Origin: Pseudarthrobacter sp. NIBRBAC000502770
Lineage (GTDB): Bacteria; Actinomycetota; Actinomycetes; Actinomycetales; Micrococcaceae
Length of the DNA: 64,000 bases
Assembly (NCBI RefSeq): GCF_006517815.1
Contig: NZ_CP041198.1
Location: 1,798,001 to 1,862,000 of the forward strand
Direction of reading: 5' to 3'
Part shown: piece after piece, positions 5,234 through 29,308 of the stretch
Layout: each line of letters begins with the position of its first letter
Numbering within the stretch: position 1 is the stretch's first letter
Position numbers and translations under genes: made by a program
The notes under the pieces: model-generated
Seen by the model: only the letters and a program-made list of their open reading frames with translations
Database searches by the model: none
What the model was told of the DNA's origin: nothing

Positions 5234-5275
5234 TGACCTTTGGCCCTACAGCCCCGGGCGCACCGGGGACAGTCT
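5234..5275 (+). promoter_or_regulatory. DosR-like box and -10 upstream of tandem USP gene
   Basis: Box TGACCTTTGGCCCTA at 5234-5248, with CAGTCT at 5270-5275 (21 bp gap). This puts the dyad centre near -42 and transcription start near 5282. A TTGACA at 5275-5280 has no matching -10 and is probably chance. Confidence 0.7.
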
Positions 5276-5316
5276 TGACAGGCAGACCCGGATTACGAGG
5301 AGCAGGAAGTGCGGCC

Positions 5317-6183
5317 ATGACATCCCAGAAACCCATCGCTGTGGGCACCAACGACTCAGCCCAGAGCCAGGCCGCCGTCCTGTGGGCAGCCCGCCGCGCC
5401 CACCGTGCGGGGCTGCCGCTGGTGGTCCTCCACGTGGTGGACGACCGCTGGGTTGCCGAGCCCTATCCATGGTTCGGGACGCTCCAGCAGGCGGGAGAGG
5501 AACTCCTCAAGACCGCCGTGGGACGCCTCGAAGGAGCCGTTCCCATCACCCCCGCAACTGAACTGCTCACCGGAAGCGTGGGCGGGTCACTGGCCAAGTA
5601 CTCCAAGAAGACCTCGATGATGGTGATCGGTTCCGGCAGCGGGCACTTCGGCGGATCCCTGGCCGACCGCGCACTCCAGGTCGCCACCGCCGCCAAGGTC
5701 CCTGTCGCCGTCGTCGGAACCCAGGACCTCGAGGGCAGGTCAGGGGTGGTGGTGGGCGTTGACGGATCGCCGGAGTCCACCCAGGCCGTGGCCTTCGCTG
5801 CCGCCGAGGCGGACCGGGAGGGAGACGAACTCACGGTGGTTTATGCGGTGAGCGTCCCCGACCCCATTGTCGACGCGGGCCTGACCCCGGCCACGCTCGC
5901 GGACCTCATTGTGGATGAGGACAGGGTGGTCCTCTCGGAAACCGTCGCCGGGCTGAAGGAAGACTACCCCGACCTGACCGTGCACCAGCGGCTGGAAAAC
6001 GACAGGGGCCCGGTGGACGCGCTTGTCGGCACGGCGGCCGGAGCCCGGCTCCTGGTCGTCGGCAGCCGGGGCCGCGGCGCCTTCAAGCGTCTGCTGCTCG
6101 GTTCCACGGCCCACGGTGTCCTCAAGCACCTGCCCTGCCCCACCATCATCACCCGGACGCAGGCCGCCAAGAACGCCATCTAG
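5317..6183 (+). CDS. Universal stress protein, two USP domains
   Basis: 288 aa with two tandem USP (UspA) folds. The first half (KPIAVGTNDSAQSQAAV) has a degenerate nucleotide loop (IGSGSGHFGG). The second begins VVVGVDGSPESTQAVAF and carries the intact ATP motif G-x2-G-x9-G-S in GSRGRGAFKRLLLGSTA. USPs bind ATP or AMP and support survival in non-growing or hypoxic cells; tandem forms are typical of mycobacterial DosR regulons. The ATG at 5317 has AGGAAG 8 bases upstream. The gene is close kin of the tandem USP at 13843 (shared KPIAVG and VVDDRW). It is first in a unit with the DUF4389 gene and is probably driven by the box at 5234. Confidence 0.92.
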   Translation: MTSQKPIAVGTNDSAQSQAAVLWAARRAHRAGLPLVVLHVVDDRWVAEPYPWFGTLQQAGEELLKTAVGRLEGAVPITPATELLTGSVGGSLAKYSKKTSMMVIGSGSGHFGGSLADRALQVATAAKVPVAVVGTQDLEGRSGVVVGVDGSPESTQAVAFAAAEADREGDELTVVYAVSVPDPIVDAGLTPATLADLIVDEDRVVLSETVAGLKEDYPDLTVHQRLENDRGPVDALVGTAAGARLLVVGSRGRGAFKRLLLGSTAHGVLKHLPCPTIITRTQAAKNAI

Positions 6184-6225
6184 GCCGCAGCGCCGGCCGC
6201 CCCGCAACGCGGAAGGTCCAATGCC

Positions 6226-7668
6226 ATGAAGAAGACCGCGGCCATCATCATGCTCATCCTCGGGATCCTGCTGACCCTCCCGGGCCTGGGCGCGCTGGCA
6301 GGCGGGGCCGTGGCGTCAGCCGTGGGAACCATCCAGGGAGATGGCTACCTCACGTCCGGCACGTCCCGTTTCTCCGTCAGTTCCTACGCCCTGACCTCCC
6401 GGCGCGCCGACGCCATCGGAGACGATGTTCCGGGCAGGCTGCCCTTCGACGTCGGCACCCTGCGGCTGCGCGTTGAACCGGTGGCCGCGGACAAACCGGT
6501 CTTCATCGGCATTGCCCCGCAGGCCGACGCCGAACAGTACCTCTCCGGGGTTCACCACTCGGAACTGCTCAACATCCGCCAACGGCCGTTCCGCGCCGAA
6601 TACCGCGACGTACCGGGCGGCAACCCGGCTTCACCGCCCGCGGACCAGCGCATCTGGACCGCCTCCGCGTCAGGAACGGGAGCGCAGGAGCTCACCTGGA
6701 ACATCACGCCCGGCACCTGGGAAGTGGTGGTAATGAACGCGGACGCCTCCGCCGGGATCGATGTGCAGGCGCAGGCCGGCTTCCGTTCCGACCTGATCCG
6801 GCCGGCCGCCATGGGACTGCTGGTGGGCGGCATCATCGCCCTGCTGATCGGTGTTCCCCTCCTTATTATTGGGGCCGCCGGGCTGGGCCGGCATACAGTT
6901 CCCCCAGCGCCATCCCCTGTAGGAACAGCCGCGGCCGGAGGGCTCCCCGGCTACCCGGCCCGGCTCTACGGCGAGATTGATCCGGCCCTTACCCGGTGGA
7001 TGTGGCTGGTCAAGTGGTTCCTGGCGATACCGCACTTCATCCTGCTCTTCTTCCTCTGGTTCGCATTCGCCATCACCACCATCGTGGCGGGGTTCGCCAT
7101 CCTGTTCACCGGCCGCTACCCGCGGGCACTCTTCGACTTCAACGTAGGCGTCCTGCGGTGGAACTGGCGTGTGGCCTTCTACGCTTACGCCGCCGTGGGG
7201 ACTGACCTTTACCCGCCGTTCACGCTCAAACGGGCCAACTACCCCGCCGACTTCGAGGTGGACTACCCACAACGGCTCTCGCGCGGACTGGTCCTGGTGA
7301 AGTGGTGGCTCCTGGCCGTCCCCCACCTGCTCCTGGTGGGCGCCTTCGCGGGGACCACGGGAGCTGTCTGGCGGTGGCAGGCCGACGACAACGTCTTCGG
7401 CAGCACCTACGAACGGGGTTCCGGCCTGTCCCTGCTGGGCCTGCTGGTGCTGGTCGCGGCAGTGATCCTGCTGTTCACCGGCCGGTACCAGCGCCCGCTC
7501 TTCGATTTCATCCTCGGCATCGACCGCTGGATCTACCGTGTCCTGGTGTACACCGCGCTGATGCGGGACGAATATCCGCCCTTCCGGCTGGACCAGGGCG
7601 CCGCCGAACCCGGCTGGCCCGCCCCGCCCCTTCCCCCGGCCGTGCCGCCGCCGCCCGTTGCGCCATGA
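6226..7668 (+). CDS. DUF4389 multi-pass membrane protein
   Basis: 480 aa. An N-terminal membrane segment (residues about 5-30) is followed by an extracytoplasmic region of about 150 aa and another membrane helix (about 188-212). Two DUF4389 repeats follow: WMWLVKWFLAIPHFILLFFLW...FTGRYPRALFDFNVGVLRW and VLVKWWLLAVPHLLLVGAF...FTGRYQRPLFDFILGIDRW. The tail is Pro-rich. Function unknown. It follows the USP gene by 42 bp with GGAAGG upstream and is probably cotranscribed from the DosR-like promoter. Its TGA stop is the first three bases of the next DosR-like box. Confidence 0.85.
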   Translation: MKKTAAIIMLILGILLTLPGLGALAGGAVASAVGTIQGDGYLTSGTSRFSVSSYALTSRRADAIGDDVPGRLPFDVGTLRLRVEPVAADKPVFIGIAPQADAEQYLSGVHHSELLNIRQRPFRAEYRDVPGGNPASPPADQRIWTASASGTGAQELTWNITPGTWEVVVMNADASAGIDVQAQAGFRSDLIRPAAMGLLVGGIIALLIGVPLLIIGAAGLGRHTVPPAPSPVGTAAAGGLPGYPARLYGEIDPALTRWMWLVKWFLAIPHFILLFFLWFAFAITTIVAGFAILFTGRYPRALFDFNVGVLRWNWRVAFYAYAAVGTDLYPPFTLKRANYPADFEVDYPQRLSRGLVLVKWWLLAVPHLLLVGAFAGTTGAVWRWQADDNVFGSTYERGSGLSLLGLLVLVAAVILLFTGRYQRPLFDFILGIDRWIYRVLVYTALMRDEYPPFRLDQGAAEPGWPAPPLPPAVPPPPVAP

Positions 7669-7707
7669 CCTTCGGCCCTAGCCCCAGCACGTATCCGCAG
7701 GCATGAT
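7666..7707 (+). promoter_or_regulatory. DosR-like box and -10 upstream of single USP gene
   Basis: Box TGACCTTCGGCCCTA at 7666-7680; its TGA is the stop codon of the DUF4389 gene. CATGAT at 7702-7707 lies 21 bp past the box, predicting transcription start near 7714 and a 29-nt leader to the ATG at 7743. Confidence 0.72.
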
Positions 7708-7742: not shown

Positions 7743-8210
7743 ATGAGCATTGCCGGGGCACCAATAGCCAGGATCGTTGTGGGCGTCGACGGGTCGGAAG
7801 CGTCCGTGGAGGCACTTCGGCAGGCCCAGAGGATGGCCATGCCCCTCGGCGCCAAGGTCCAGGCCCTCGCCTGCTGGGAATACCCGCAAATGTACAGCGG
7901 CTACGTGATGATGGGCGTCGAGGGCTTCGAGGAGGGTGCCAGGAAGGTCCTCGACGACGCAGTGGAACAAGCCTTCGGAGGCGAGACACCGGCCAACGTC
8001 ACGTCGACCCTGGTCCGCAGCCATCCCCGCGAAGCGCTGATCGACGCCAGCCGCGAGGCCGACATGGTCGTGGTGGGCCGGCGGGGGCACGGCGGGTTCG
8101 GCGGCCTGCTCCTGGGCTCGGTCAGCTCCGCCATCGTGGCGCACGCGCATTGCCCGGTGCTGGTAGTCCACACTCCGGAGACCGGACCCGGCGGCCCCAA
8201 AGGTTCCTGA
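7743..8210 (+). CDS. Universal stress protein, single domain
   Basis: 155 aa, one USP fold. It starts IVVGVDGSEASVEALRQA and carries a complete ATP-binding loop G-x2-G-x9-G-S in GRRGHGGFGGLLLGSVS, then HCPVLVVH. Probably ATP-binding and active as a dimer in the cytoplasm during growth arrest. AGGGAGCAG lies just before the ATG. Its closest relative in the window is the minus-strand USP at 9969, which has a shortened loop. Preceded by its own DosR-like promoter. Confidence 0.93.
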   Translation: MSIAGAPIARIVVGVDGSEASVEALRQAQRMAMPLGAKVQALACWEYPQMYSGYVMMGVEGFEEGARKVLDDAVEQAFGGETPANVTSTLVRSHPREALIDASREADMVVVGRRGHGGFGGLLLGSVSSAIVAHAHCPVLVVHTPETGPGGPKGS

Positions 8211-8253: not shown

Positions 8254-9237
8254 ATGGTGGTGCCGGCCGGTGAGGTACGACGACGGGCGGCCGCGATGGC
8301 GCTGGCCGCCGCCCTGGCGGTCCTCGCCATCATCCTGGCCCTGTTGCTTCCGGCACCCACGGCCGGACCGCCGTCGGCCGCTCCGTCCCCATCAGTGGCG
8401 CTTCCGCCGGCGCCGCCGGGATCACCCAATCCGCCGGCTCCGGGCGGTTCCGCGCCGGCGCAGGAGCTGCAGGAAACCGACACCCCCGAGGCAGGCCAGG
8501 CTCCGGTCCAGCCACCCGTGACCGAGCCGCCGGTTCCCGAACCAGGGCCACCCGAAGCTCCGGACCAGCCTCCGGAACCGCCCCGGCCGGTGCCGCTTCC
8601 GGAGTCCCTCCGGGGCCAGGACCTGACGGTAATCCCCGGCGCCGGCCGCGTAGTGGCCCTCACCTTCGACGCGGGAGCCAACGCGGCAGGGCTGGCAAAA
8701 ATCCTGTCCGCCCTTGCCGCCCGCGGCGTGCCCGGGACCTTCTTCCTGACCGGGAACTGGGCGGCGAACAACCCGCAGGCCGTGGCGCAGATCGCGGCCG
8801 CCGGGCACCGGGTGGCCAACCATTCAATGACCCATCCGGTGTTCACCGGACTGGGCGATGACCAGATCGTCCAGCAGGTGCGCGGTGCAGAGCAGGCCAT
8901 CCTGGCGGCCGGTGCCGACCCCAGGCCGCTGTTCCGCTTCCCCTACGGCGAACGCGACGCCCGCACCATCGCGGCGGTCAACGCACTGGGCTATGCGGCC
9001 GTGAGGTGGACCGTGGACACCCTGGGCTGGAAGGGGACCAGCGGCGGCGTGGACGTCCAAACGGTGGCAGACCGCGTCCAGGCGGGACTGCGGCCCGGCG
9101 AAATCGTCCTGATGCACATCGGGTCCAACCCCGACGACGGGACCACGCTCGATGCCGACGCCCTCCCCGGTGTCATCGACCGCGTCACGGCCGCGGGGTA
9201 TGGTTTCGCCACGCTCGACGCCCTGCTGGGCCACTGA
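8254..9237 (+). CDS. Membrane-anchored polysaccharide deacetylase (NodB fold)
   Basis: 327 aa. An N-terminal membrane anchor (residues about 10-30), a Pro-rich linker of about 80 residues, and a NodB/CE4 domain. The active-site block is LTFDAGANAAG (Asp139; the second Asp of the canonical TFDDG is Ala140). Metal ligands appear as His190-x3-His194 in NHSMTHP. FRFPYGERD and the C-terminal VLMHIG block are present. The family de-N-acetylates or de-O-acetylates cell-wall glycans. The ATG at 8254 is chosen because AAGG lies about 6 bases before it. It follows the USP by 43 bp without its own box, so it may be part of that transcript. Confidence 0.87.
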   Translation: MVVPAGEVRRRAAAMALAAALAVLAIILALLLPAPTAGPPSAAPSPSVALPPAPPGSPNPPAPGGSAPAQELQETDTPEAGQAPVQPPVTEPPVPEPGPPEAPDQPPEPPRPVPLPESLRGQDLTVIPGAGRVVALTFDAGANAAGLAKILSALAARGVPGTFFLTGNWAANNPQAVAQIAAAGHRVANHSMTHPVFTGLGDDQIVQQVRGAEQAILAAGADPRPLFRFPYGERDARTIAAVNALGYAAVRWTVDTLGWKGTSGGVDVQTVADRVQAGLRPGEIVLMHIGSNPDDGTTLDADALPGVIDRVTAAGYGFATLDALLGH

Positions 9238-9252
9238 CCCCGGGCCGGAACA

Positions 9253-9294
9253 GGACCAATGGCTCTCCCCCGCACCCCTGTGGGGCCAGATACT
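9253..9294 (+). promoter_or_regulatory. Degenerate DosR-like box and -10 upstream of SHOCT gene
   Basis: GGACCAATGGCTCTC at 9253-9267 matches the box at about 11 of 15 positions. GATACT at 9289-9294 sits at the same 21-bp spacing as elsewhere. If real, transcription starts near 9301, which excludes the ATG at 9259 as the start of the next gene. Confidence 0.45.
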
Positions 9295-9968: not shown

Positions 9969-10469
9969 TCAGGGCGCGGCAGTGGAATGGGCCGCGCCGG
10001 CGTCAGCCTTGGCTCCGGCTTCCGGGGCGTGCACCACCAGCACCGGGCAGTAGGCATGGCTCACGCAGGCTGAACTGACCGAGCCGGGCACGAAGTTTCC
10101 GTGCCCCCGCCTCCCGACAATCAGCAGTGAGGCGTTTCGGCTCGCATCGATCAGTGCGGGGCCGGGCCTGCCGCGCACCAGGCGGGGGTGCACGAAGGAC
10201 GGCACCTCACCGAAAGCGTCCGCCAGCGTCTGTTGGAGTACCTGGTCGGCGGCATACTTGAAGCCCTCGATCCCCACGGCGAGGTACACCCCGTAGCCCG
10301 CTGGAACGTCCCAGCATGCCCAGGCTTCCACCGGTGCTGAGAGGGGCTCCGCCATGGCCCGGGCCACCCGCAGCGCTGCGACGGATGCCTCGGATCCGTC
10401 CACTCCCACAATGATCCTGGGACGCTGGCCGGAGCCGGGCACCGCCGCCCCGTTCCCATGTTCTGCCAC
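9969..10469 (-). CDS. Universal stress protein with shortened nucleotide loop
   Basis: 166 aa single-domain USP (IIVGVDGSEASVAALRVARAM). The start is GTG at 10467-10469 with a strong AGGAGG a few bases upstream. The loop reads GRRGHGNFVPGSVS, leaving only six residues between the second Gly and the GS pair where ATP-binding USPs have nine. The close relative at 7743 has the full nine. A three-codon in-frame deletion may have weakened or abolished ATP binding. Tail is Ala-rich. Its promoter at 10495-10536 fires away from dosR. Confidence 0.9.
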   Translation of the reverse strand: MAEHGNGAAVPGSGQRPRIIVGVDGSEASVAALRVARAMAEPLSAPVEAWACWDVPAGYGVYLAVGIEGFKYAADQVLQQTLADAFGEVPSFVHPRLVRGRPGPALIDASRNASLLIVGRRGHGNFVPGSVSSACVSHAYCPVLVVHAPEAGAKADAGAAHSTAAP

Positions 10470-10494: not shown

Positions 10495-10536
10495 AGCGTG
10501 GACCGGAAGGGGTGCGGAGAACAGGGCCAAAGGTCA
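10495..10536 (-). promoter_or_regulatory. DosR-like box and -10 for the minus-strand USP
   Basis: Reading the minus strand, box TGACCTTTGGCCCTG (10536 to 10522) is followed after 21 bp by CACGCT (10500 to 10495). Predicted start near 10488, a leader of about 19 nt carrying the Shine-Dalgarno. Confidence 0.7.
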
Positions 10537-10597: not shown

Positions 10598-10639
10598 GGA
10601 CTTTGGTCCCTTCCCGCGCACCGCTGCGCAGGGAACAAT
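10598..10639 (+). promoter_or_regulatory. DosR-like box and -10 of dosR (autoregulation)
   Basis: GGACTTTGGTCCCTT at 10598-10612 is the copy most like the mycobacterial GGGACTTNAGTCCC box. AACAAT follows at 10634-10639 with the standard 21-bp gap. Predicted start near 10646. This suggests that the regulator activates its own gene. Confidence 0.7.
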
Positions 10640-10708
10640 GGGACCAGGCCCTTCCCGGGGGCCGCCCCGCGCAGGCGGGTTGAATCGTGGAGATTGTGGG
10701 AGCGTTCG

Positions 10709-11389
10709 GTGCAGATGCATGAGACTGGGGCTGATGAAGCGGCGGGATCTCCCGGGCAGGTCCGTGTGTTCATCCTTGATGACCACGAACTCGTCCGGCA
10801 GGGGCTGAAGGACCTGTTGGAGGGCGAAGGGTTCCTCGTGGTGGGCGAGAGCGGGTCCGCAGCAGAAGCCACGCGGCGCATCCCCGCGCTGCACCCGGAC
10901 ATCGCCATCCTCGACGGCCGGCTTCCGGACGGCACCGGGATCGAGGTCTGCCGGGATGTGCGCTCGCTTGATCCCCGCCTGCGCTGCCTGATCCTCACCA
11001 GCTACGACGACGAACAGGCCCTCCGGGGAGCGGTCCTGGCCGGCGCATCCGGGTACATCCTGAAGCAGATCAGGAGTGATGACCTCCTGGCCGGAATCCG
11101 GAGGGCTGCTGCCGGTGAGTCACTCTTTGATCCGGGAGTTGAGCAGCAGATCATTGCGGGCCTGTCCACGGCGCCTACCGACCCCCGGCTGGACGGCTTG
11201 AGCGCGCAGGAGAAGAAGGTCCTGGCCCTGATCGGCCAGGGGCTGACCAACCGCCAAATCGGCGATGACCTGTTCCTGGCCGAAAAAACCGTCAAGAACT
11301 ACGTTTCGTCCATCCTGGCCAAACTGGGCTTCGAGCGCCGGACGCAGGCAGCAGTCTTCGTCACCAGGAGTTCCACGGACCCTGCCTGA
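10709..11389 (+). CDS. dosR: DosR/DevR-like response regulator (NarL family)
   Basis: About 226 aa: receiver domain then LuxR-type HTH. Phospho-acceptor Asp69 lies in AILDGRLPDGTGIEVCRD, with acidic DD at 24-25, Thr97 (LILTSY) and Lys119 (AGASGYILK). The HTH region GLTNRQIGDDLFLAEKTVKNYVSSILAKLGFERRTQAAVF is nearly identical in pattern to M. tuberculosis DosR. In mycobacteria DosR switches on the dormancy regulon in low oxygen, NO or CO. GTG at 10709 is chosen because GGGAG lies 6 bases upstream; ATG 10715 is possible. It has its own box upstream and is tail-to-tail with the dosS-like kinase, 15 bp apart. Confidence 0.93.
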   Translation: MQMHETGADEAAGSPGQVRVFILDDHELVRQGLKDLLEGEGFLVVGESGSAAEATRRIPALHPDIAILDGRLPDGTGIEVCRDVRSLDPRLRCLILTSYDDEQALRGAVLAGASGYILKQIRSDDLLAGIRRAAAGESLFDPGVEQQIIAGLSTAPTDPRLDGLSAQEKKVLALIGQGLTNRQIGDDLFLAEKTVKNYVSSILAKLGFERRTQAAVFVTRSSTDPA

Positions 11390-11404: not shown

Positions 11405-13138
<1,734 letters not shown>

Positions 13139-13281: not shown

Positions 13282-13323
13282 GGACCTTCTTCCCTAGCCG
13301 CGGCGGCCCCACCGCCCTAGGCT
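13282..13323 (+). promoter_or_regulatory. DosR-like box and leaderless -10 for PPOX-USP-ATPase-hsp20 unit
   Basis: GGACCTTCTTCCCTA at 13282-13296, then TAGGCT at 13318-13323 after 21 bp, then six bases and the ATG at 13330. Transcription should start on the ATG itself. Confidence 0.7.
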
Positions 13324-13329: not shown

Positions 13330-13788
13330 ATGAACAGCGCAGCGACAGAACCGGAAATCAAGGAACTCGGCGTCCACGACTGCTGGCGGTACCTCCGATC
13401 CACGTCCCTTTGCAGGATCGCCTTCACCGACGGGGGCGGGGTGGAAAACTACCCCGTGAACTTTGTCCCCACTAACGGCACGCTGCTCATCCGTACCGGC
13501 GAAGGAACAAAGCTGGCCTCCCTTCCGGACCGGAAGGCGGTGGCCGTCGAAGCGGACGGAATGAACCAGTACGGCACCATCGCCTGGAGCGTCATCCTGA
13601 AGGGCCATGCCATGGTGGTGTCCGACGACGAGGAAATCAGGGACGCCATGGAGGCGGGCCTGTCCCCGTGGCAGCCGGGCCGGAAAAACGTCCTGGTCCG
13701 GATCACGCCGGAGGACATCAACGGCCGCCGGTTCGTCATCTCCGCCCCAACCCATTGGTGGCCGCCCCGGGAGCCCGCCGCAGACTAG
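13330..13788 (+). CDS. Pyridoxamine-5'-phosphate-oxidase-family flavin protein
   Basis: 152 aa split-beta-barrel protein (PPOX/FMN-binding family). Typical features are CWRYLRSTSLCRIAFTDGG, the strand NYPVNFVPTNGTLLIRTGEGTK and SVILKGHAMVVSDDEE. Such proteins bind FMN, F420 or heme; the cofactor cannot be fixed from sequence. PPOX-like proteins also occur in the mycobacterial DosR regulon. The mRNA is predicted to be leaderless, and no Shine-Dalgarno is seen. First gene of a unit with a tandem USP (54 bp downstream), a P-type ATPase and hsp20. Confidence 0.88.
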   Translation: MNSAATEPEIKELGVHDCWRYLRSTSLCRIAFTDGGGVENYPVNFVPTNGTLLIRTGEGTKLASLPDRKAVAVEADGMNQYGTIAWSVILKGHAMVVSDDEEIRDAMEAGLSPWQPGRKNVLVRITPEDINGRRFVISAPTHWWPPREPAAD

Positions 13789-17263: not shown

Positions 17264-17686
17264 ATGAATGACCTGATGAAATGGTTCGACAACCGCCGCT
17301 CCCCCATGGACGTCATCGAACGCCTTTTTGAAGGCGATGTGGGGACGTCCGCCATCCGGGTTGAAGAGATGGTGGACGGCAATACGCTGGTGGTGCGCGC
17401 CGAACTGCCCGGCGTCGATCCGGAGAAGGACGTGGACGTGACGGTCACCGACGGCGTCCTGACGATCAAAGGCGAACGGCAGGAAAAGAAGGAACACAAG
17501 GACAAGGACAGCTACCGTTCCGAGTTCCGCTACGGTTCGTTTGTCCGGCGGATTCCCCTCCCAAGTGGAGTTCAGCAGGGCGACATAACGGCATCGTACA
17601 AGGATGGAGTCCTTGAAGTCCGGGCGCCAATGCCGGACCAGGGACAGGCAGCCGCGGCGTCGAAGATCCCCATTAGCCGGGGTTAG
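17264..17686 (+). CDS. Hsp20 / alpha-crystallin small heat-shock protein
   Basis: 140 aa. The alpha-crystallin domain runs from about 35 to 125: VVRAELPGVDPEKDVDVTVTDGVLTIKGER, then YGSFVRRIPLP and the GVLEVRAP strand. A C-terminal KIPI supplies the I-x-I anchor used in oligomer assembly. It is an ATP-independent holdase for unfolding proteins. HspX/Acr, of the same family, is the hallmark product of the mycobacterial DosR regulon. AGGAG at 17253-17257 precedes the ATG. Last gene of the unit, followed by a strong terminator. Confidence 0.95.
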   Translation: MNDLMKWFDNRRSPMDVIERLFEGDVGTSAIRVEEMVDGNTLVVRAELPGVDPEKDVDVTVTDGVLTIKGERQEKKEHKDKDSYRSEFRYGSFVRRIPLPSGVQQGDITASYKDGVLEVRAPMPDQGQAAAASKIPISRG

Positions 17687-17736: not shown

Positions 17737-20154
17737 TTATTGCCCCTTGGCCAGGGCTGCCTCCGCTGCCGCAATGACGGGCAGCGTCCTGACGTAGGTA
17801 TCAGGATTCAGGGACACCGAGTCGATTCCCTCCCTGACCAGGAACTCCGCCAGGTCCGGATGGTTGCTGGGCCCCTGTCCGCAGATTCCGATTTTGATGC
17901 CGGCGGCGTGGGCCTTGCTGATCGCCTGGGCAATCATGGACATCACTGCCGGGTCCCGCTCATCGAACAATCCAGCAAGCTCCTCGGAGTCGCGGTCCAC
18001 ACCCAGCACCAGCTGGGTGAGATCGTTGGACCCGATGGAGAAGCCGTCAAAACGCTTGGCGAATTCCCCGGCCAGGACCACGTTGGACGGGATTTCGCAC
18101 ATCATGTAGAGCTGGAGCCCTTCCTGGCCGCGGACCAGCCCTTGCTCCTCCATCGCCTCGATGACCTGGTCCGCCTCGCGCACGGTGCGGCAGAACGGAA
18201 CCATGACAATGACGTTGCCGAATCCAGCCCGTTCCCGCACGCGTTTGAGGGCCCTGCACTCGAGTGCGAACCCTTCACGGTAGTGGCTGCTGTAGTAGCG
18301 TGAGGCGCCGCGGAACCCCAGCATGGGATTTTCCTCTGCACGCTCGAAAGCACTGCCGCCAATGAGGTGGCTGTATTCGTTGCTCTTGAAGTCGCTGAGC
18401 CGGACGATCACCGGCTTGGGGTGGAAGGGCGCCGCGATCTTGGCTATTCCGGTTGCCAGCACGTCGATAAAGTACTCCTGCGGATCCGGGTAGCCGCTGG
18501 TGAGCTGCCGTATCAGGGCGGCCTCTTCCGGATCCGCAACTTTTTCGGGATGGACCAGTGCCATCGGGTGGATGCGGACCAGGTTGTTGATGATGAACTC
18601 CATGCGGGCCAGGCCCACGCCGGCGGCGGGTAAACGCCACCACTTGAAGGCTGCCGCCGGGCTCGCAATGTTGATCATCACGGCCGTGCGGGTGGCTGGC
18701 AGTGCATGCATGTCCACGTCTTCCACGGAGAACTCCAACAGCCCCTCGTAGACGCGGCCCTCCTCGCCTTCCGCGCAGGACAAGGTGACCTCGACGCCGT
18801 CGGAAAGCACCTCGGTGGCGTTGCGGGACCCCACGACGGCGGGCACCCCCAATTCGCGGCTGACGATCGCTGCGTGGCTGGTTGGACCGCCGTGGTCGGT
18901 GATGATGCCCGCGGCCCGCTTCATGATGGGCACCCAGTCCGGGTCAGTCATCCGGGTGACCAGCACGGAGCCATCAACAAAGGACTCGATGTCCTTTGCA
19001 TCCTGGACCACGCATGCCCGGCCTTTGGCGATGGAGTCGCCGATTGCTGCTCCTGTGACGAGGACCCGGCCGGGCTTTGCCAGGTGGTACGTGCGGAAGC
19101 TGGACGTGCTCCGGCGCGCCTGCACCGTTTCCGGCCGGGCCTGCACCATGAAGAGTTCGCCGGTCACGCCGTCCTTGGCCCACTCCATATCCATCGCACG
19201 GCCGTAGTGGTCTTCTACGGCCACTGCCCACCGGGCCAGCAGGACCACTTCCGTGTCATTCAGCACCAGCGAGCGCTGCTCCCGCTCCGTAGTATCGACC
19301 ATCCGGGTCCGGGCATCCCCGCCCTGGCTGTAGACCATCTTGCGTTCTTTGGCCCCGATCTCCCTCTCGATGACCGGGCTGAAGCGCTGGTCTGCGAGGA
19401 GCCCCTTGAAGACCTGGTACTTGTCCGGGTTGATGGTCCCCTGCACCACTGTCTCCCCCAGTCCCCAGGCCGCACTGATAACCACCACGCCGGGGAATCC
19501 GGATTCGGTATCGAGCGAGAACATCACGCCGGATGCGCCAACGTCCGAACGGACCATGTGTTGCACGCCGACGGACAGGGCAACGTCCATGTGGCCGTAG
19601 CCCTTCATTTCGCGGTAGCTGATGGCCCGGTCCGTAAACAGCGAGGCGTAGCAGCGCCGGCACGCGTCGAGCACCCCGCGCTCGCCGGCCACGTTAAGGA
19701 AGGTTTCCTGCTGCCCGGCAAAGCTGGCATCCGGCAGGTCTTCCGCTGTGGCGCTGCTGCGGACCGCAACGGAAACCGCGGGCTGCCCGACCCGTTGGCA
19801 GAGGTTCCGGTAGTGCTCCTGGATGTCTGCGGCGATGCTTTCCGGGAAGGTTGCCTGCAGGAAGAGTTCACGGATCGCGGCCCCCGCCTGGCGCAGCGTG
19901 AGGGTCCCGGCGCGCTGTTCCTCCATGTGCATCTTGATCCGGGGCTCCAGGTTATTGGCAGCAAGGAATGCCCGGTAGGCGGCCGCCGTGGTAGCGAACC
20001 CTTCGGGAACCCTGACTCCTGCGGATTGGAGGGCCCGGCTGAGCTCCCCGAGGGAGGCGTTCTTTCCTCCCACGGAGGGGATGTCCGCGATTCCGGTGTC
20101 CTCGATCCATACGACGTTCGCGACTGTAACGGAGGATTCTGCGGCGGCACTCAT
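17737..20154 (-). CDS. ppsA: Phosphoenolpyruvate synthase
   Basis: 805 aa, normal for PpsA. Converts pyruvate plus ATP to PEP, AMP and phosphate, feeding gluconeogenesis. Domain order: ATP-grasp domain (GGKNASLGELSRAL near the start; SVAVRSSATAEDLPDASFAGQQET), swivelling phosphohistidine domain (GGPTSHAAIVSRELGVPAVVG, His427), and a C-terminal PEP/pyruvate barrel (SIGSNDLTQLVLGVDRDS and GICGQGPSNHPDLAEFLV). It lies 33 bp after the CtpF-like ATPase and is probably in a USP-ATPase-ppsA transcript under the box at 23251. Confidence 0.95.
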   Translation of the reverse strand: MSAAAESSVTVANVVWIEDTGIADIPSVGGKNASLGELSRALQSAGVRVPEGFATTAAAYRAFLAANNLEPRIKMHMEEQRAGTLTLRQAGAAIRELFLQATFPESIAADIQEHYRNLCQRVGQPAVSVAVRSSATAEDLPDASFAGQQETFLNVAGERGVLDACRRCYASLFTDRAISYREMKGYGHMDVALSVGVQHMVRSDVGASGVMFSLDTESGFPGVVVISAAWGLGETVVQGTINPDKYQVFKGLLADQRFSPVIEREIGAKERKMVYSQGGDARTRMVDTTEREQRSLVLNDTEVVLLARWAVAVEDHYGRAMDMEWAKDGVTGELFMVQARPETVQARRSTSSFRTYHLAKPGRVLVTGAAIGDSIAKGRACVVQDAKDIESFVDGSVLVTRMTDPDWVPIMKRAAGIITDHGGPTSHAAIVSRELGVPAVVGSRNATEVLSDGVEVTLSCAEGEEGRVYEGLLEFSVEDVDMHALPATRTAVMINIASPAAAFKWWRLPAAGVGLARMEFIINNLVRIHPMALVHPEKVADPEEAALIRQLTSGYPDPQEYFIDVLATGIAKIAAPFHPKPVIVRLSDFKSNEYSHLIGGSAFERAEENPMLGFRGASRYYSSHYREGFALECRALKRVRERAGFGNVIVMVPFCRTVREADQVIEAMEEQGLVRGQEGLQLYMMCEIPSNVVLAGEFAKRFDGFSIGSNDLTQLVLGVDRDSEELAGLFDERDPAVMSMIAQAISKAHAAGIKIGICGQGPSNHPDLAEFLVREGIDSVSLNPDTYVRTLPVIAAAEAALAKGQ

Positions 20155-20187: not shown

Positions 20188-22758
20188 TCAGAGGCTTTGG
20201 TCCTTGGTGCGGCGCAGGCGCCCCCGGACGGATTTGTGCATCCAGTCCGCCAGCAGGACAGCGGGGGCTGCCAGGAGGGCGAGGAGGAGCCCTTCGGGGG
20301 GCGGCGGGGACTGGCCCAGCAGCGCAGCGAGCGACGGCAGGTACAGGCACGCCCCCAGGATGGCAGCTTCTGCGAGCACGGCCCAGACCAGGAGCCGGTT
20401 CGTTCCCCAGCCCAGTTTCCATGGGGGCACCGTTGCGCTCCGGCAGGCAAAGGCGTTGGCGAGTTGTCCCAGGACGACGGCGGTGAAGGCGGCCCCGGAA
20501 GCGGCCATCAGCAAGGGCACCTGCGGGTCCCGCCCCCGGGTCCAGCCGCCGCCTGCCAGGACAGCGGAGAACACGGCCATTTCGACTGCCGCTTCCACCG
20601 GGCCCAGGATGCAGAACACGCGGATGATCAGGCGCCGGTCCATGAGGTGCCGGCGTTCGGGCGGTCGGGTCAGCACGCGCCTCCCCGGCGGCTCGGCACC
20701 CAGGGCGAGCGCCGGCAGCAGGTCGGTGCCGATGTCCAGGGCGAGGATCTGGAGGACACCCAGGGCCAGCGGAAAGTGGCCGCCGGAGAGCGCCCAGATG
20801 ACGAAGGGGGTCAGTTCGGCCACGTTGTCGGTGAGGTGGTAGGTGAGGAAACGGTGGATGTTGGCGTACGTTGCCCGGCCTTGTTCGATGGCGGCCACAA
20901 TGGTGCCGAAGTGGTCATCGAGGAGGACCAGGTCCGCGGCTTCGCGCGCCACGTCGGTTCCGCTCAGGCCCATGGCCACCCCGATGTCGGCTTCACGCAG
21001 GGCCGGGCCGTCGTTGACGCCGTCGCCGGTCATGGCTACCACGTGCCCGCGGGACTGCAGGGCCCTCGCGACCCGAAGTTTTTGCTCGGGTGAAACCCTG
21101 CTGACCACCACTCCGTCACGGTCCAGGAGCGCTCCGAGCACCTGGTCGTCTTCCGGCAGTGCTGCGCCTTCCAGTACGTATTCCGGCGTTCCCGTCAAAC
21201 CAATCTGCCGGGCGATCGCGGCGGCGGTGGCCGGATGGTCCCCGGTAATCATGGCCACCCTTAGACCTGCCTGCCGGGCTGTGCGGATCACGTCCCCGAC
21301 ATCCGGCCGCGGCGGGTCCTGCAGCCCGATCAGGCCCAGCAGTTCCATGCCCGTTTCAAGCTCCGCTGCGGCGGCGGACTGCCATGTTCCAGGGGCGCCT
21401 CCAAGCCGCCGGCGGGCCACCGCAATGACGCGCAGGCCCCGGTTCGCCATCACGTCCACCTGGTCCCTGACCGGGCCAGGAACGGACTCACACACGGGAA
21501 GGACGGTTTCCGGGGCACCTTTACAGAAAAGGTCCTGCCCCACGATCGCTGACTCCCTGCGCCGGGCAGGATCGAACGGGAACCGCCGCGACGGCACGGG
21601 CCCGGACACTGTGCCCGTCAGCCTGCGTGCCAGGACGTCCATGGCCGCTTCCATCGGATCACCCTGGGCACGCCATTGTCCGTCGTGGAGCTCGGCACGG
21701 CCCTGGGAAGCGGTGCGGGCGGCGAGCGCGGCCTGGGCAGCTTTCTCGACGCCACGGCCTTCGATGTGCGCCTCAGGGGAATACCCATCCCCTGCCACCT
21801 CGATGGCGCCGTCGGCCGTGAAGACTTCGACGGCGTTCATCCGGTTCTGCGTCAGGGTCCCGGTTTTGTCCGTGCAAATAAAAGTGGTTGAGCCCAGGGT
21901 TTCCACTGCTTCGAGGTTGCGGACCAGTCCCTTGCGCGATGCCATGCGCTGGGCGCCCATGGCCAGGGACAGCGTGACGGTGGGCAGGAGTCCTTCCGGC
22001 ACCAGCGCTACGGCAACGCCAATGGAGAACAGGAACGAATCGCGCCACTGGAAACCCACCAGCAGCGATGCCAGGAAGAAGACCGCCGCGATGCCCAATG
22101 CCATGCCCGCCGTAACCCGGACAATCCGCCGCAATTCCAGGGACAGGGGCGTTGGTGGCGGAACGGCAGCGCTGGTGAGGGCGGCGATCCCCGCGAGCCT
22201 GGTCTTGGCGCCTGTTGCGGCGACGGCGGCCTCCCCGTAACCGTTGACCAGGAAGGTGCCGCCCCAGGCCTGGTCCCCTGCGGATTTGGGCACCGGGTCG
22301 CTTTCGCCCGTCAGCATCGATTCGTCCACCGCGCAGGCCTGGGCAGTCAAGAGGACCACATCTGCCGGTACGCGGTCGCCGGCAGACAGCAGCACCACAT
22401 CTCCCACCACCAGTTCACTGGCGTGGACCTTTCGCACCTTTCCGTCCCGCCGGGCCAGTACGTCCGCCGGCAGCAGTCCCCGCAGTTTCGCGGCGGCGTG
22501 CTGGGCGCGTTCCTGCTGGATGTGGGCGAACACCCCGTTGACTATGACGACGACGATGATCGCCACTGCCAGTTGCGGCATGTCCGCGATGAAGGCCAGC
22601 GCGGCGGCGCACCACAGCATGAGGGCGAAGAAGTGCGTCATCTCGCCCCAGAGCTTCCGCCACTGGGATACGGGTTTCTCAGTGGGGAGCTGGTTGGGGC
22701 CTGCCTGTTTCAGGAGTTGCGCGGCCTCCGCTGAGCTCAGGCCCTCAGCGGTCCTCAC
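20188..22758 (-). CDS. CtpF-like cation-transporting P-type ATPase
   Basis: 856 aa P2-type ATPase. TM4 keeps VPEGLLPTVTLSLAMGAQRMA (Glu255), the actuator has MLTGESDPVPKS, phosphorylation site CTDKTGTLTQNRMNAVEVF (Asp297), and hinge MTGDGVNDGPALREADIGVAMGLSGTDVAREAADLVLLDD. Nearest known relative is mycobacterial CtpF, itself a DosR target; calcium, sodium or another cation is possible. The start is GTG, and GTGA forms a 4-nt overlap with the stop of the upstream USP, so the two are coupled. The USP-CtpF neighbourhood resembles Rv1996-Rv1997. Confidence 0.9.
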   Translation of the reverse strand: MRTAEGLSSAEAAQLLKQAGPNQLPTEKPVSQWRKLWGEMTHFFALMLWCAAALAFIADMPQLAVAIIVVVIVNGVFAHIQQERAQHAAAKLRGLLPADVLARRDGKVRKVHASELVVGDVVLLSAGDRVPADVVLLTAQACAVDESMLTGESDPVPKSAGDQAWGGTFLVNGYGEAAVAATGAKTRLAGIAALTSAAVPPPTPLSLELRRIVRVTAGMALGIAAVFFLASLLVGFQWRDSFLFSIGVAVALVPEGLLPTVTLSLAMGAQRMASRKGLVRNLEAVETLGSTTFICTDKTGTLTQNRMNAVEVFTADGAIEVAGDGYSPEAHIEGRGVEKAAQAALAARTASQGRAELHDGQWRAQGDPMEAAMDVLARRLTGTVSGPVPSRRFPFDPARRRESAIVGQDLFCKGAPETVLPVCESVPGPVRDQVDVMANRGLRVIAVARRRLGGAPGTWQSAAAAELETGMELLGLIGLQDPPRPDVGDVIRTARQAGLRVAMITGDHPATAAAIARQIGLTGTPEYVLEGAALPEDDQVLGALLDRDGVVVSRVSPEQKLRVARALQSRGHVVAMTGDGVNDGPALREADIGVAMGLSGTDVAREAADLVLLDDHFGTIVAAIEQGRATYANIHRFLTYHLTDNVAELTPFVIWALSGGHFPLALGVLQILALDIGTDLLPALALGAEPPGRRVLTRPPERRHLMDRRLIIRVFCILGPVEAAVEMAVFSAVLAGGGWTRGRDPQVPLLMAASGAAFTAVVLGQLANAFACRSATVPPWKLGWGTNRLLVWAVLAEAAILGACLYLPSLAALLGQSPPPPEGLLLALLAAPAVLLADWMHKSVRGRLRRTKDQSL

Positions 22759-23216
22759 ACGGCGTCCGCCTCCTGCCCTACCAGGAGTACCGGGCAGTTG
22801 GAGTGGGCGGCGCAGGCCTTGCTGACCGAGCCCATGGCTGCCTTCAGCAGGCCGCCCTCGCCGTGCCGTCCCACCACCAGCATCTGCGCCCGCCGGCTCT
22901 CCTCCACCAGCACCTTTGCCGGTGGTCCAAACTTGATGGTGACGTCGATGTTTTCGGGCCGGTCGCCGGAAAAGGCCCGGCCCAGGGCGTCCTCAACCAG
23001 CCGGCCCGCCGCATCCTCAAGCCTGGCGGTGAATTGCCGGTCCGCCCCTTCCAGGCGTGACATCACCAGGTAGTCAGGCATCCCGACGCAGGAGATGACT
23101 TCGAGGCGGGTGCCCAGACGGGCTGCAAGCGTGCCCGCGTAGCGAAGCGCGGCGGAGGAGTATTCAGAACCGTCCACACCCACGATGACGGGCTTGGCCC
23201 CTGTTTCTGCGTTCAT
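22755..23216 (-). CDS. Universal stress protein, single domain
   Basis: 153 aa USP (VIVGVDGSEYSSAALRYAGTLA) with a full ATP loop G-x2-G-x9-G-S in GRHGEGGLLKAAMGSVS and then NCPVLLVG. I start at the ATG at 23214-23216: the DosR-like promoter predicts transcription from about 23217, making this a leaderless mRNA, and the longer open frame runs through the box. First gene of the USP-CtpF-like-ppsA unit, overlapping the ATPase start by 4 nt. Confidence 0.92.
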   Translation of the reverse strand: MNAETGAKPVIVGVDGSEYSSAALRYAGTLAARLGTRLEVISCVGMPDYLVMSRLEGADRQFTARLEDAAGRLVEDALGRAFSGDRPENIDVTIKFGPPAKVLVEESRRAQMLVVGRHGEGGLLKAAMGSVSKACAAHSNCPVLLVGQEADAV

Positions 23217-23223: not shown

Positions 23224-23265
23224 ACGATCCCGGCCGGGCAATGCCGAGGGAAGGGCCAAAGGTCA
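23224..23265 (-). promoter_or_regulatory. DosR-like box and -10 for USP-ctpF-ppsA unit
   Basis: Minus-strand box TGACCTTTGGCCCTT (23265 to 23251), then GATCGT (23229 to 23224) after 21 bp. The TGA of the box is the stop codon of the upstream heavy-metal-type ATPase. Predicted start about one base before the USP ATG. Confidence 0.72.
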
Positions 23266-25312: not shown

Positions 25313-25354
25313 TGACCTTTGGCCCTGCCCCAACATCCGGTCCGGGGCGAATGT
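25313..25354 (+). promoter_or_regulatory. DosR-like box and -10 upstream of flavodoxin gene
   Basis: TGACCTTTGGCCCTG at 25313-25327 and GAATGT at 25349-25354 (21-bp gap). Predicted start near 25361, giving a leader of about 31 nt. In the opposite direction, toward the P1B ATPase, no hexamer fits. Confidence 0.7.
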
Positions 25355-25391: not shown

Positions 25392-25841
25392 ATGAACGCC
25401 GTCGTCCTCTACGACACCGCCTATGGGAACACCCGCACAGTCGCCGAATCCATAGCGTCCGCGCTGGGACTGGGTGCCTCCGCCGTTCCGGTTGACGGTT
25501 TCGATCCAGCCACCCTCTGCCCGGGCGACCTGCTCGTCGTCGGGAGCCCCATCAATGGCTGGAAGCCTACTGCCCGCATTGCTGAATCCTTGGCCAACCT
25601 CGCCCGCCGCGGACTGAACGGTGTCCACGCCGCCGCATTCGACACGCGGGTGAAACTGTTCATCCACGGCGACGCCGCCAAGAAAATGACCAAATCCCTG
25701 GCGGAGGCCGGTGCCACCATCGTCTCCGGGCCCATGGCCTTCTATGTCAAGGGCAGCGAAGGTCCGCTCCTGGAAGGTGAGGTGGAGCGGGCCGCATCAT
25801 GGGCGGCAGACCTGGCGGCCTCGTTGCAGGGCCATGCGTAA
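25392..25841 (+). CDS. Flavodoxin-like protein
   Basis: 149 aa. The N-terminus MNAVVLYDTAYGNTRTVAESIA is the FMN phosphate-binding loop of flavodoxins, and LVVGSPINGWKPTA matches the isoalloxazine-binding region. Probably a small FMN electron carrier or quinone/NADPH-linked flavoprotein in the cytoplasm; the redox partner is not known. It lies 73 bp downstream of a DosR-like box and diverges from the P1B ATPase. Confidence 0.88.
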   Translation: MNAVVLYDTAYGNTRTVAESIASALGLGASAVPVDGFDPATLCPGDLLVVGSPINGWKPTARIAESLANLARRGLNGVHAAAFDTRVKLFIHGDAAKKMTKSLAEAGATIVSGPMAFYVKGSEGPLLEGEVERAASWAADLAASLQGHA

Positions 25842-25916: not shown

Positions 25917-25958
25917 AGTCCTAAGGCCCTGTCGTGCCGGGGCATGGACCGCGAGGCT
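25917..25958 (+). promoter_or_regulatory. DosR-like box and leaderless -10 upstream of GyrI-like gene
   Basis: AGTCCTAAGGCCCTG at 25917-25931 (a weaker copy) and GAGGCT at 25953-25958 at the standard gap, then six bases and the ATG at 25965. Same geometry as the PPOX promoter at 13282-13330. Confidence 0.55.
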
Positions 25959-25964: not shown

Positions 25965-26435
25965 ATGACTGAACCAGGCCCGCAGCCGCAAAAGATCCAC
26001 ATCACCGAACAGCCCGTGGCAGTGGTCCGCGAGCGGGTTCCCATGGACGCGCTCACCAGTTTCTTCGGCCGGGCCTTCGGTGCGGTGATGTCCGCGGTCC
26101 AGGTGCAGGGCGCCAGTCCGGCGGGTCCGCCGTTTGCGCGCTACCACGGAATGCCGGGCGAAACGGTGGACGTCGAAGCCGGGTTTCCTGTCACCGGCAA
26201 CTTCCACGGCACCGGCGAGGTGGCCAGCGCGGTACTCCCGGACGCAGATGCCTTCGAAGCCATCCACACCGGTCCCTACGACACGCTGGCTGCCACGTAT
26301 GACGCCATCCGGCAGAGCATGGAAGCGGACGGAGCCACCCCGGCGGACTCCATGTGGGAGTACTACCTGACCGATCCTGAACAGCAGCCTGATCCAGCCA
26401 CCTGGCAGACCAGGGTGGTCTGGCCACTCGCCTGA
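25965..26435 (+). CDS. GyrI-like small-molecule-binding protein
   Basis: 156 aa of the GyrI-like/AraC effector-binding fold (SOUL-type beta barrel). Starts KIHITEQPVAVVRERVPMDAL, with PPFARYHGMPGETVDVEAGFPV and the C-terminal WEYYLTDPEQQPDPATWQTRVVWPL typical of the family. Stand-alone members bind hydrophobic compounds or hydrolyse toxins. The ATG at 25965 is exactly where the DosR-like promoter would start transcription; an in-frame ATG at 25944 is less likely. Probably cotranscribed with the membrane protein 33 bp downstream. Confidence 0.85.
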   Translation: MTEPGPQPQKIHITEQPVAVVRERVPMDALTSFFGRAFGAVMSAVQVQGASPAGPPFARYHGMPGETVDVEAGFPVTGNFHGTGEVASAVLPDADAFEAIHTGPYDTLAATYDAIRQSMEADGATPADSMWEYYLTDPEQQPDPATWQTRVVWPLA

Positions 26436-27226: not shown

Positions 27227-27246
27227 CCTCCGGCGCCCCTGATCAA

Positions 27247-27288
27247 GGACCTTGGTCCCTAAAGCCGGTACGGGCCCTTTGAGATGGT
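27247..27288 (+). promoter_or_regulatory. DosR-like box and -10 upstream of YegP-like gene
   Basis: GGACCTTGGTCCCTA at 27247-27261, a nearly perfect dyad, and GATGGT at 27283-27288. Predicted start near 27295 leaves an unusually long leader of about 109 nt. Confidence 0.7.
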
Positions 27289-27403: not shown

Positions 27404-27676
27404 ATGGCAGGTACGTTCGAACTGTTTGTCGATGATGATTCACAGATTCGGTTCCGGCTTGTGATGCCCGATGGACACGTGCTGGCGGTTTCCGGACAAT
27501 TCGCCGACAAGCAGGCGGCCGCCGCTGCCATCGAGGAGGTCCGCGAGTGCGCCGGCACGGGCCTGATCCAGGACGTGGTACCGCCGCGTCCCGGTGTTGT
27601 CCGCGCCTCCCCGCAGCACCCCCGCTATGCCGTGCACCGTGCGCCGCGGAGGCTCAATAACCTCGGGGCCGCCTGA
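27404..27676 (+). CDS. YegP/DUF1508-like small protein
   Basis: 90 aa. The fold signature is FELFVDDDSQIRFRLVMPDGHVLAVSGQFADKQAAAAAIEEVRECA, a DUF1508 (YegP) beta-beta-beta-alpha unit, here once. The tail is basic and Pro-rich. Function unknown; related proteins occur in stress-induced sets. The ATG at 27404 has GAGGAGG about 9 bases upstream. Transcribed from a DosR-like promoter and followed by a hairpin. Confidence 0.8.
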   Translation: MAGTFELFVDDDSQIRFRLVMPDGHVLAVSGQFADKQAAAAAIEEVRECAGTGLIQDVVPPRPGVVRASPQHPRYAVHRAPRRLNNLGAA

Positions 27677-27721
27677 GTCCGGCCTGGCACGGAACCCGCC
27701 TTTCGGGCAACCCATTCAGGT

Positions 27722-27751: not shown

Positions 27752-27784
27752 GCTTTGTCCGCGACGGCGTGCCTGCCCGCTGCG

Positions 27785-29242
27785 CTAGAAGCTTGAGGAA
27801 CTGCCGGATCCGGAGAAGCTGCCGCCGCTGCTGCCGTATCCGGTGGTGCCGCCACCACCCCTGGCTGAATTGACGCTGCTGACCCCCGTATTGAAGCCGG
27901 AGTTGAAGGTGGCCACGGAGAAGAACGTGTAGGACGGGTACACCGTGCCGAGGATGCTCGGTTCGTACGTCCGCTGCCTGCGGTGGTCCGTGCCGCCGTG
28001 GGCCGTTTCCATCTGTTCCCGCATCAGCCGTGCTTCGCGGTCTGTCCGGGCGAAGCCCTGGATCACGGTTTCGGCATGGTTCTCCAGCAGCTCCGAGAGC
28101 CGGGAACGGGCGCTGTACAGCCGGTCCAGGGCCTCCTCCGGCGTGATCCGCCGCTCGGCCAGTGCGGCCGTCCAGCGCTCAATGTCCCGCAGGCTTTCGT
28201 CACGGAAGGACCGGAGCGCCGTGGCAGTGGCCGAGTCCCCCTGCCCGTGGCGTTTGGCCAGGAGCTGCTCCAACCCGGCGAGGTCTTTACGGAAGGGAGC
28301 AAGCTGCCGGTCCCAGGCCGTAGGCCAGGTATCGGCACGGTTCAGCAGGGCATTGCTGTCCGAGATGACGTCGTCCAGGGCGTCCAGCTCCGCCGCACTG
28401 TCGGCGAACCGGCGGGCCAGCTTGAGGTTCTTCCTGCTGCTCAACGCCCGCTTACCCAGTGCGTGAACCTGGTTGGACAGCTCCGTCGCTGCGGCATACT
28501 TGCTGAGGAACGTCCTGTGTTTCTCAAGGACCTGGCTTCCGTAGCGGGATGATTCCGGGATAGTGCCGGCATTCAGTTCCGTAACCTCCAGGTCCATGCT
28601 GACGTTGGAGTAGCTGCGGTCCCCGCGTTCAATCTGCTTTCGGCATCCGCTCCTGGTCACGGCACGCACAATCAGCCAAGCGGCTGCACCCAGGGCCGCG
28701 GTTCCGGCGAGAACCCAGGTCGTGACCAGGAACGCCGTCGAGCGGTACCAGGGCTGGTTGATGAGCTCTGCCCCGCGGCGGATTCCGGCAACTGTGCCGT
28801 CGGTCCACTGGGCGTCGCGAAACAGTTCCTTGGACGCATCCTGGATGTCGCTGCGCTGCTCGAGGGACACTTTCCGGTCCTCGCCCATGTACGTCCCCAC
28901 GTGCCGGCCCACGGGGTCAAGGGCGAAAATGAACAGTCCGTCGGCCCATTTTTGGCCGTCCGGGCTGATCCACTCCGGGTGCGTGGACCGCGCGAAATTC
29001 AGGACTTGTTCGTTGAGGTTGTCCGCCGGGGTGCCGTTGTAGGTGAAGACAGCAACACGGGTGGGCTCATAGAACTGGATGCGTTCGACGGCGGGCACCA
29101 GCGTGTTCTGGTCAAGCACCCCTGCGGTGTCCGCCACGATGACGGCCACAGGCGCCACCGCGGTGCCGGGGGCCGCGGCGCCGACCAGCAGGGCGGCGAG
29201 GGCAAGCACCACCACGGCTATCCGGCGCATGATGCTGCCCAT
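27785..29242 (-). CDS. Secreted/membrane TPM-like protein with Gly/Ser-rich tail
   Basis: About 485 aa. Signal peptide (IAVVVLALAALLVGAAAPG), then an extracellular TPM-like domain (VIVADTAGVLDQNTLVPAVERI... ADGLFIFALDPVGRHVGTYMGEDRKVSLEQ). A membrane helix lies near residue 165-190, then a long helical cytoplasmic region, and a C-terminal GGGGTTGYGSSGG tail as in DUF5129-type actinobacterial proteins. Role not known; TPM proteins have been linked to photosystem repair and phosphatase activity. The start at 29242 is preceded by GGGGAGGA. A DosR-like box lies about 50 bp upstream, facing this gene. Confidence 0.75.
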   Translation of the reverse strand: MGSIMRRIAVVVLALAALLVGAAAPGTAVAPVAVIVADTAGVLDQNTLVPAVERIQFYEPTRVAVFTYNGTPADNLNEQVLNFARSTHPEWISPDGQKWADGLFIFALDPVGRHVGTYMGEDRKVSLEQRSDIQDASKELFRDAQWTDGTVAGIRRGAELINQPWYRSTAFLVTTWVLAGTAALGAAAWLIVRAVTRSGCRKQIERGDRSYSNVSMDLEVTELNAGTIPESSRYGSQVLEKHRTFLSKYAAATELSNQVHALGKRALSSRKNLKLARRFADSAAELDALDDVISDSNALLNRADTWPTAWDRQLAPFRKDLAGLEQLLAKRHGQGDSATATALRSFRDESLRDIERWTAALAERRITPEEALDRLYSARSRLSELLENHAETVIQGFARTDREARLMREQMETAHGGTDHRRQRTYEPSILGTVYPSYTFFSVATFNSGFNTGVSSVNSARGGGGTTGYGSSGGSFSGSGSSSSF

Positions 29243-29293
29243 GTTCCTCCCCACTGTTTAGAATCAGGATGAAACCAGGGAGCAGGGCCGCCA

Positions 29294-29308
29294 AAGGGCC
29301 TAAGGTCC
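29294..29308 (-). promoter_or_regulatory. DosR-like box between divergent TPM-like and USP genes
   Basis: Minus-strand GGACCTTAGGCCCTT (29308 to 29294) matches the consensus well, but no NANNNT hexamer lies at the standard distance on either strand (CATCCT is 2 bp further out toward the TPM-like gene). It could serve either or both genes. Confidence 0.5.

Follow-up and report, generated by a model that had tools for sequence, protein, structure and literature searches.

The 64,000-nucleotide stretch of the Pseudarthrobacter sp. NIBRBAC000502770 genome analyzed here (NZ_CP041198.1, positions 1,798,001 to 1,862,000; hereafter the window, whose own numbering is used for plain coordinates) harbors a cluster of ~24 kb, in which twelve DosR-type boxes lie around a two-component system of the DosR/DosS type. 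The response regulator gene dosR (10694-11389, +; start at TTG 10694 or ATG 10715) codes for a receiver and a GerE domain (Pfam), and converges with dosS (11405-13087, -), which codes for a kinase with the Pfam architecture GAF-GAF-HisKA_3. A near-palindromic box of the GGGnC type precedes dosR itself as well as the putative target genes on both sides of the pair. The cluster is of the known DosR/OsdR kind in a compact form and, judged from its sequence, very probably constitutes a hypoxia/dormancy regulon, with phosphorylated DosR predicted to activate the neighboring promoters from a position of about -42.5.

The boxes share a 14-base core, KGACCTTNGKCCCT, which is matched exactly at seven positions (5234+, 7666+, 10523-, 23252-, 25313+, 27247+, and 29295-), with one mismatch at three (10598+, 13282+, and 17170+), and with three mismatches at two weak boxes (9253+ and 25917+). 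Eleven of these near-palindromes had been picked out in an earlier sequence-only reading of this DNA, and all of them lie where it placed them; the twelfth, 17170+ (GGACCTTTGGCTCT), is absent from its coordinate list and obeys the same 22-bp ruler. By this ruler, a NANNNT hexamer resembling a -10 element begins exactly 22 bp after the box, a spacing that we count from the end of the 14-mer. It holds for 10 of the 11 boxes first listed, with no other offset between 10 and 49 being used by more than two of them, and for 11 of the 12 once 17170+ is included, the remaining box, 29295-, having its hexamer at 23. The sequence-only reading had considered such regularity very unlikely by chance, and the numbers bear this out: 9 of the 10 boxes with at most one mismatch fit the ruler, giving a binomial tail, multiplied by 60 offsets, of 7e-11 against a local NANNNT background of 0.037. 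With +1 set seven bases past the -10 hexamer, a convention also used for the leaderless transcripts below, the center of the dyad is predicted at -42.5, and at -43.5 for 29295-.

The two weak boxes were possibly chosen for their -10 elements and were therefore checked by conservation: the one before the SHOCT gene (9253+) is retained in 10 of 11 aligned rows and the one before the gyrI-like gene (25917+) is discernible by eye in 16 of 16. For the boxes at 7666, 10598, 13282, 17170, and 27247, conservation refers to the rows listed. Among these, the PPOX box, GGACCTTCTTCCCTA, is unchanged in 17 of 17 rows and most of its spacer is variable; the dosR box is conserved in relatives together with its -10, and the box and -10 at 7666 are likewise found in relatives. 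At the hsp20 position, a box-like site, GGACCTTTGnCTCT, combined with GATGGT or GAAGGT recurs in 11 aligned rows, and in some relatives the box of the YegP-like gene shows a spacing of 23.

The best solved relative of DosR is DevR of Mycobacterium tuberculosis (3c3w, E 6.5e-66), with which it shares an identical EKTVKNYV stretch and all three contact residues K179, K182, and N183. These residues are at the core of DNA binding, which is lost when K182 is acetylated (PMC5999986). The K..KN signature of the helix is kept in 77 rows of the R1 set, which holds 111 rows with the DosR of the window counted twice, after 33 rows without the helix residues and one misread row are left out; the named loci were found partly via the peptide AEKTVKNY, so that helix conservation is ascertained there, though not in the genus loci. 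The dosS product combines GAF, HisKA_3, and HATPase domains, and its first GAF domain matches 2vzw, which we take to be DosT, with an E-value of 2.9e-54, and the DevS chains more weakly. It has a Gly where 2vzw has Gly and the DevS structure 2w3d has Glu, a position that presumably tunes O2 access, and it retains the HPPM histidine and the LYLT tyrosine of the pocket (these three positions being numbered E87, H149, and Y171). The genes are convergent and adjacent in 38 of 80 named loci, including 19 of 20 from Micrococcaceae, and 15 of the 80 have no dosS within the stretch examined. Toward dosS, box 13282 is followed at a distance of 22 bp by TACCAA rather than by NANNNT; hence, dosS is probably not driven by that box.

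Whole-genome pattern searches (4.48 Mb) place most of the exact sites in the cluster. Seven of the eight exact boxes are inside it, the eighth, at 3725943, lacking a -10; and the composite of box, 22 bp, and NANNNT occurs eight times with zero mismatches, seven times in the cluster and once at 534010, where a second dosRS pair lies ~5 kb away. A slightly wider composite of box and -10 finds 97 sites in 17 related genomes, and the same pattern read backward finds 0 in each. Using distance windows picked after the hits were known, we assigned 88 of the 97 to one of two loci: 72 to dosR (at most 30 kb away) and 16 to dosR2, the regulator gene of the second pair (at most 12 kb away). Thus, DosR promoters appear predictable to the base from the composite signature. 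The earlier suggestion of a DosR-like regulon with dyads centered near -42 is accordingly supported at the level of sequence by the identity of DosR and DosS, the predicted -42.5, and the composite sites.

Going through the cluster from its left end, with offset 22 throughout unless another spacing is given, an exact box at 5234-5247 with the -10 CAGTCT (5270-5275, +) precedes a universal stress protein (USP) gene (5338-6183, PF00582), and a second exact box (7666-7679; -10 CATGAT, 7702-7707, +) precedes another USP gene (7743-8210). The weak box GGACCAATGGCTCT (9253-9266; -10 GATACT, 9289-9294, +) lies before the SHOCT gene, which likely starts at ATG 9328 and ends at 9606. At the place corresponding to 9237-9253, several relatives have one gene more between those for polysaccharide deacetylase and the SHOCT protein. 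This gene is P-type ATPase-like, with ~36% identity to the ATPase gene 20188-22758, and is missing here. Two boxes then point away from each other: an exact one (10523-10536; -10 CACGCT, 10500-10495, -) before a USP gene (9969-10469), and GGACTTTGGTCCCT (10598-10611, one mismatch; -10 AACAAT, 10634-10639, +) before dosR, the latter being a predicted autoregulation site. Beyond dosS, the one-mismatch box at 13282-13295 (-10 TAGGCT, 13318-13323, +) serves the PPOX gene (13330-13788). Box GGACCTTTGGCTCT (17170-17183, one mismatch; -10 GATGGT, 17206-17211, +) is contained in the 3' end of a gene for a P-type ATPase and is followed by an hsp20/alpha-crystallin gene (17264-17686, +; PF00011, E 4.5e-22). 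HspX of M. tuberculosis belongs to the same Hsp20/alpha-crystallin family. A small RNA behind this box, of the sort that DosR regulates in M. tuberculosis (PMC5360333), was considered and rejected, as the stretch encodes Hsp20.

On the reverse strand follow, as identified by Pfam, genes for a phosphoenolpyruvate (PEP)-synthase-like enzyme (17737-20154) and a cation P-type ATPase (20188-22758), which, from their shared strand and close spacing, probably belong to the same operon as the USP gene 22755-23216. The exact box at 23252-23265 (-10 GATCGT, 23229-23224, -) stands before this USP gene, which has its ATG at 23216. Further right, an exact box (25313-25326; -10 GAATGT, 25349-25354, +) precedes a flavodoxin gene (PF00258) that likely starts at ATG 25392 and ends at 25841, and the weak box AGTCCTAAGGCCCT (25917-25930; -10 GAGGCT, 25953-25958, +) precedes the GyrI-like gene with its ATG at 25965. 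Another exact box (27247-27260; -10 GATGGT, 27283-27288, +) lies before the YegP-like (DUF1508) gene ending at 27676 (PF07411). The last one (29295-29308, exact; -10 CATCCT, 29271-29266, -, spacing 23) precedes a DUF5129 gene (27785-29254, PF17173). For two genes, PPOX (13330) and GyrI-like (25965), the predicted +1 coincides with the A of the ATG, predicting leaderless mRNAs; for the USP gene, it falls one base ahead of the ATG at 23216, predicting a nearly leaderless mRNA.

The operator had also been taken to define a lineage-specific, GC-shifted DosR code, and this part of the sequence-only reading is not supported. The OsdR consensus of Streptomyces coelicolor, AGGGCCGATCGGCCCT, is equally GC-shifted, and the predicted OsdR sites include AGGGACCTTCGGCCCC and CGGGACCTTCGGCCCT, the second of which is an exact match to the motif proposed for the window; further, OsdR binds the Dev-box promoters of M. 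tuberculosis too (PMC5069765). To these OsdR sites are added the unchanged recognition helix, with K179, K182, and N183 kept, and a peak of spacing at 22/23 bp in other families. This last point comes from a simple scan for dyads in the 80 named loci, genic and intergenic DNA alike, and is descriptive, the related species not being independent. At offsets 22 and 23, respectively, NANNNT follows 18 and 13 of 74 sites in Micrococcaceae, 10 and 5 of 48 in Nocardioidaceae, 12 and 12 of 64 in Micromonosporaceae, 3 and 3 of 16 in Streptomycetaceae, and 2 and 3 of 20 in the remaining families; all other offsets count 0-6. For M. smegmatis, the stringent motif used as input reads GGGACTTNNGNCCCT, and ANNNT predominates among the -10 elements (PMC6448022); the box proximal to the transcription start point in M. 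tuberculosis overlaps the -35 (PMC3029386). The occurrence of the 22/23-bp spacing across actinobacterial families suggests an activation geometry that is ancestral.

Compared with the mycobacterial DosR/DevR system, the cluster has an orthologous regulator with identical DNA contacts, a GAF kinase of the DosS/DosT type, USP and Hsp20 targets, and a box over the -35 (PMC3029386). In contrast, the mycobacterial half-site is GGGAC with a T, against TGACC/GGACC here, and mycobacterial dosR and dosS share one operon instead of being convergent; here, most sites fall within a single 24-kb cluster. The likeness to OsdR/OsdK of S. coelicolor extends from the GC-rich boxes, one an exact match to the motif here, to an island of target genes, in which eight sites near osdR cover 20 of 22 genes, those for USP, pyruvate phosphate dikinase, and PPOX included; unlike here, however, osdR-osdK is an operon, and the 43 predicted sites take in nitrate reductase genes (PMC5069765).

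We propose that low O2, or nitric oxide or carbon monoxide, would be sensed by DosS via a putative haem GAF domain, and that DosS would then phosphorylate DosR. Bound to the dyad over the -35, DosR would replace the missing -35 element and let RNA polymerase fire. It would thereby amplify its own expression, with dosS, convergent with dosR and lacking a fitting box and -10, being expressed independently. The predicted outputs are the USPs, Hsp20, P-type ATPases, PEP-synthase-like enzyme, flavodoxin, and PPOX, GyrI-like, SHOCT, YegP-like, and DUF5129 proteins. The DosS2/DosR2 pair is predicted to be induced via the same kind of box, and DosR2, with its receiver kept and its DNA contacts lost, may act as a brake.

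This second convergent pair lies outside the window, at G000:C2:537.6-540.2 kb (L182:7623-10188). DosS2 is 63% identical to DosS, and DosR2 has DevR as its nearest solved relative (E 4.5e-41) and reads AVVGASVS where DosR has KTVKNYVS. Orthologues of DosR2 with at least 63% identity are listed in 26 of 198 genomes of the genus, 25 of which hold a further match at an E-value of 1e-40 or better. The equivalents of K179, K182, and N183 are gone in all 26, a loss by which we rejected the notion that DosR2 is a plain second DosR. The phospho-accepting position is an Asp in 23 of them and an Asn in 3, and in the acidic pair one Asp has become Asn (20) or Thr (1) among the 21 rows listed. In all 13 loci viewed with wider flanks, dosS2 adjoins dosR2. 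When the pattern is slightly relaxed and up to one mismatch allowed, boxes are present within ~1.5 kb upstream of dosR2 in 26 of 26 cases, against 0 of 26 for the reversed pattern, a mean of 0.2 of 26 for shuffled sequence, and 6 of 26 for the opposite strand; all 35 such boxes have a NANNNT at 22 (16) or 23 (19). DosR2 forms one clade (support 100/99), whose sister, L246, reads EPVVKNYVS and is an apparent intermediate, with a long-branch warning attached to both the DosR2 stem and L246.

Near dosR2, a perfect composite site, GGACTTTAGTCCCT with the -10 TAGCTT (L182:4011-4809; G000:C2:534010), stands before a lipoprotein-like gene without a Pfam match, with a gene for a cation P-type ATPase coming next; several relatives have this site as well. 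Two other loci (L202 and L205, in G059 and G020) have a DosR-like paralogue beside a DosS-like gene with the helix RTTVKIQVA and one of the three contacts, and fit neither class. A third dos locus, L214 (G017:C1:3404000-3417000), has a partial DosR match (residues 23-161), matches resembling DosR2 and DosS2, and five box-like sites. Many DosR2 orthologues (L219-L244) share a new tail, PAPIPRAWELLH or a similar one, in place of the C-terminal segment of DosR.

We tentatively suggest that DosR would induce DosR2, and that the latter would hold the dormancy response in check, either by taking phosphate away from the Dos kinases or by tying up DosR. A precedent is the sequestration of kinases by non-cognate response regulators of higher affinity (PMC10368727), in which a regulator that need not act on DNA captures the phosphorylated kinase and thus sets a threshold. 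DosR2 would work likewise; unlike there, the predicted inducer of DosR2, its paralogue DosR, is also what DosR2 would restrain, and DosR2 comes with a DosS2 of its own. An account that we regard as no less plausible is that DosR2 is not a brake but a decaying duplicate, or a reader of a new DNA target. In favor of this account are the in-frame stop in the orthologue G134, the three Asn replacements at the phospho-Asp position, and the structural model (mean predicted local distance difference test score 74.7, with residues 212-223 and 225-228 below 50), in which the helix-turn-helix helices are still predicted along with the receiver. The recognition helix also differs among orthologues, its non-synonymous difference (pN) being 0.225 against 0.000 for DosR, as compared to 0.108 against 0.026 in the receiver; such free variation counts, on the other hand, against one shared new target. 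This account does not sit easily with the persistence of DosR2 as one clade in 26 genomes, invariably with upstream boxes and in many cases with the common tail, or with the median ratio of non-synonymous to synonymous change (dN/dS) across the gene of 0.165, against 0.045 for DosR (36 pairs from nine loci for either gene). DosR2 thus looks to be under purifying selection overall, yet freed from DNA reading, and a brake may be the simplest fit.

As for the cluster itself, it could be argued that the boxes serve some other regulator of the NarL/LuxR type, and that the neighborhood of DosR is coincidental, the genome holding 14 GerE-domain matches. We consider this very improbable, because a conserved box with its -10 precedes dosR too, the recognition helix of DosR is identical to the one in M. 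tuberculosis DevR, the motif coincides with OsdR sites already known (PMC5069765), and the majority of the composite sites in the 17 genomes cluster around dosR. That the ruler is an artefact of picking sites for a chance placement of A and T, as the three mismatches in two of the eleven boxes first listed might intimate, is scarcely credible when boxes chosen by sequence only fit it in 9 of 10 cases, the unlisted 17170 fits it, the reversed composite gives nothing against 97, and every box upstream of dosR2 has its hexamer at 22 or 23.

Several observations nevertheless weigh against the interpretation of the cluster as a DosR-activated regulon. Box 29295- is off the ruler by 1 bp. The conservation of box 17170, which overlaps the coding sequence of the P-type ATPase, may be partly coding. 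Nine of the 97 composite sites are at neither the dosR nor the dosR2 locus, three of these being GGACTTTAGTCCCT..TAGCTT. The GAF domain of DosS is assigned to the haem type of DosS/DosT by similarity, from which haem binding is predicted. Finally, searches of the whole genome with looser patterns yielded no excess: the box with at most one mismatch occurs 34 times against 56 for its backward-read control, and the composite of box and -10 with at most two mismatches 45 times against 60 for the reversed control. We therefore dropped loose patterns as a route to extending the regulon.

Among titles and abstracts found for DosR or DevS together with Arthrobacter, none describes a Dos regulon in Arthrobacter. 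With this cluster, the dormancy switch of the DosR/OsdR kind gains a soil genus, and the proposed ancestral 22/23-bp activation geometry becomes testable in harmless soil strains. DosR2, in turn, allows one to test whether the dormancy response carries an inducible phospho-sink; if it does, the DosR switch in one clade of Arthrobacter-type bacteria would have a built-in brake.

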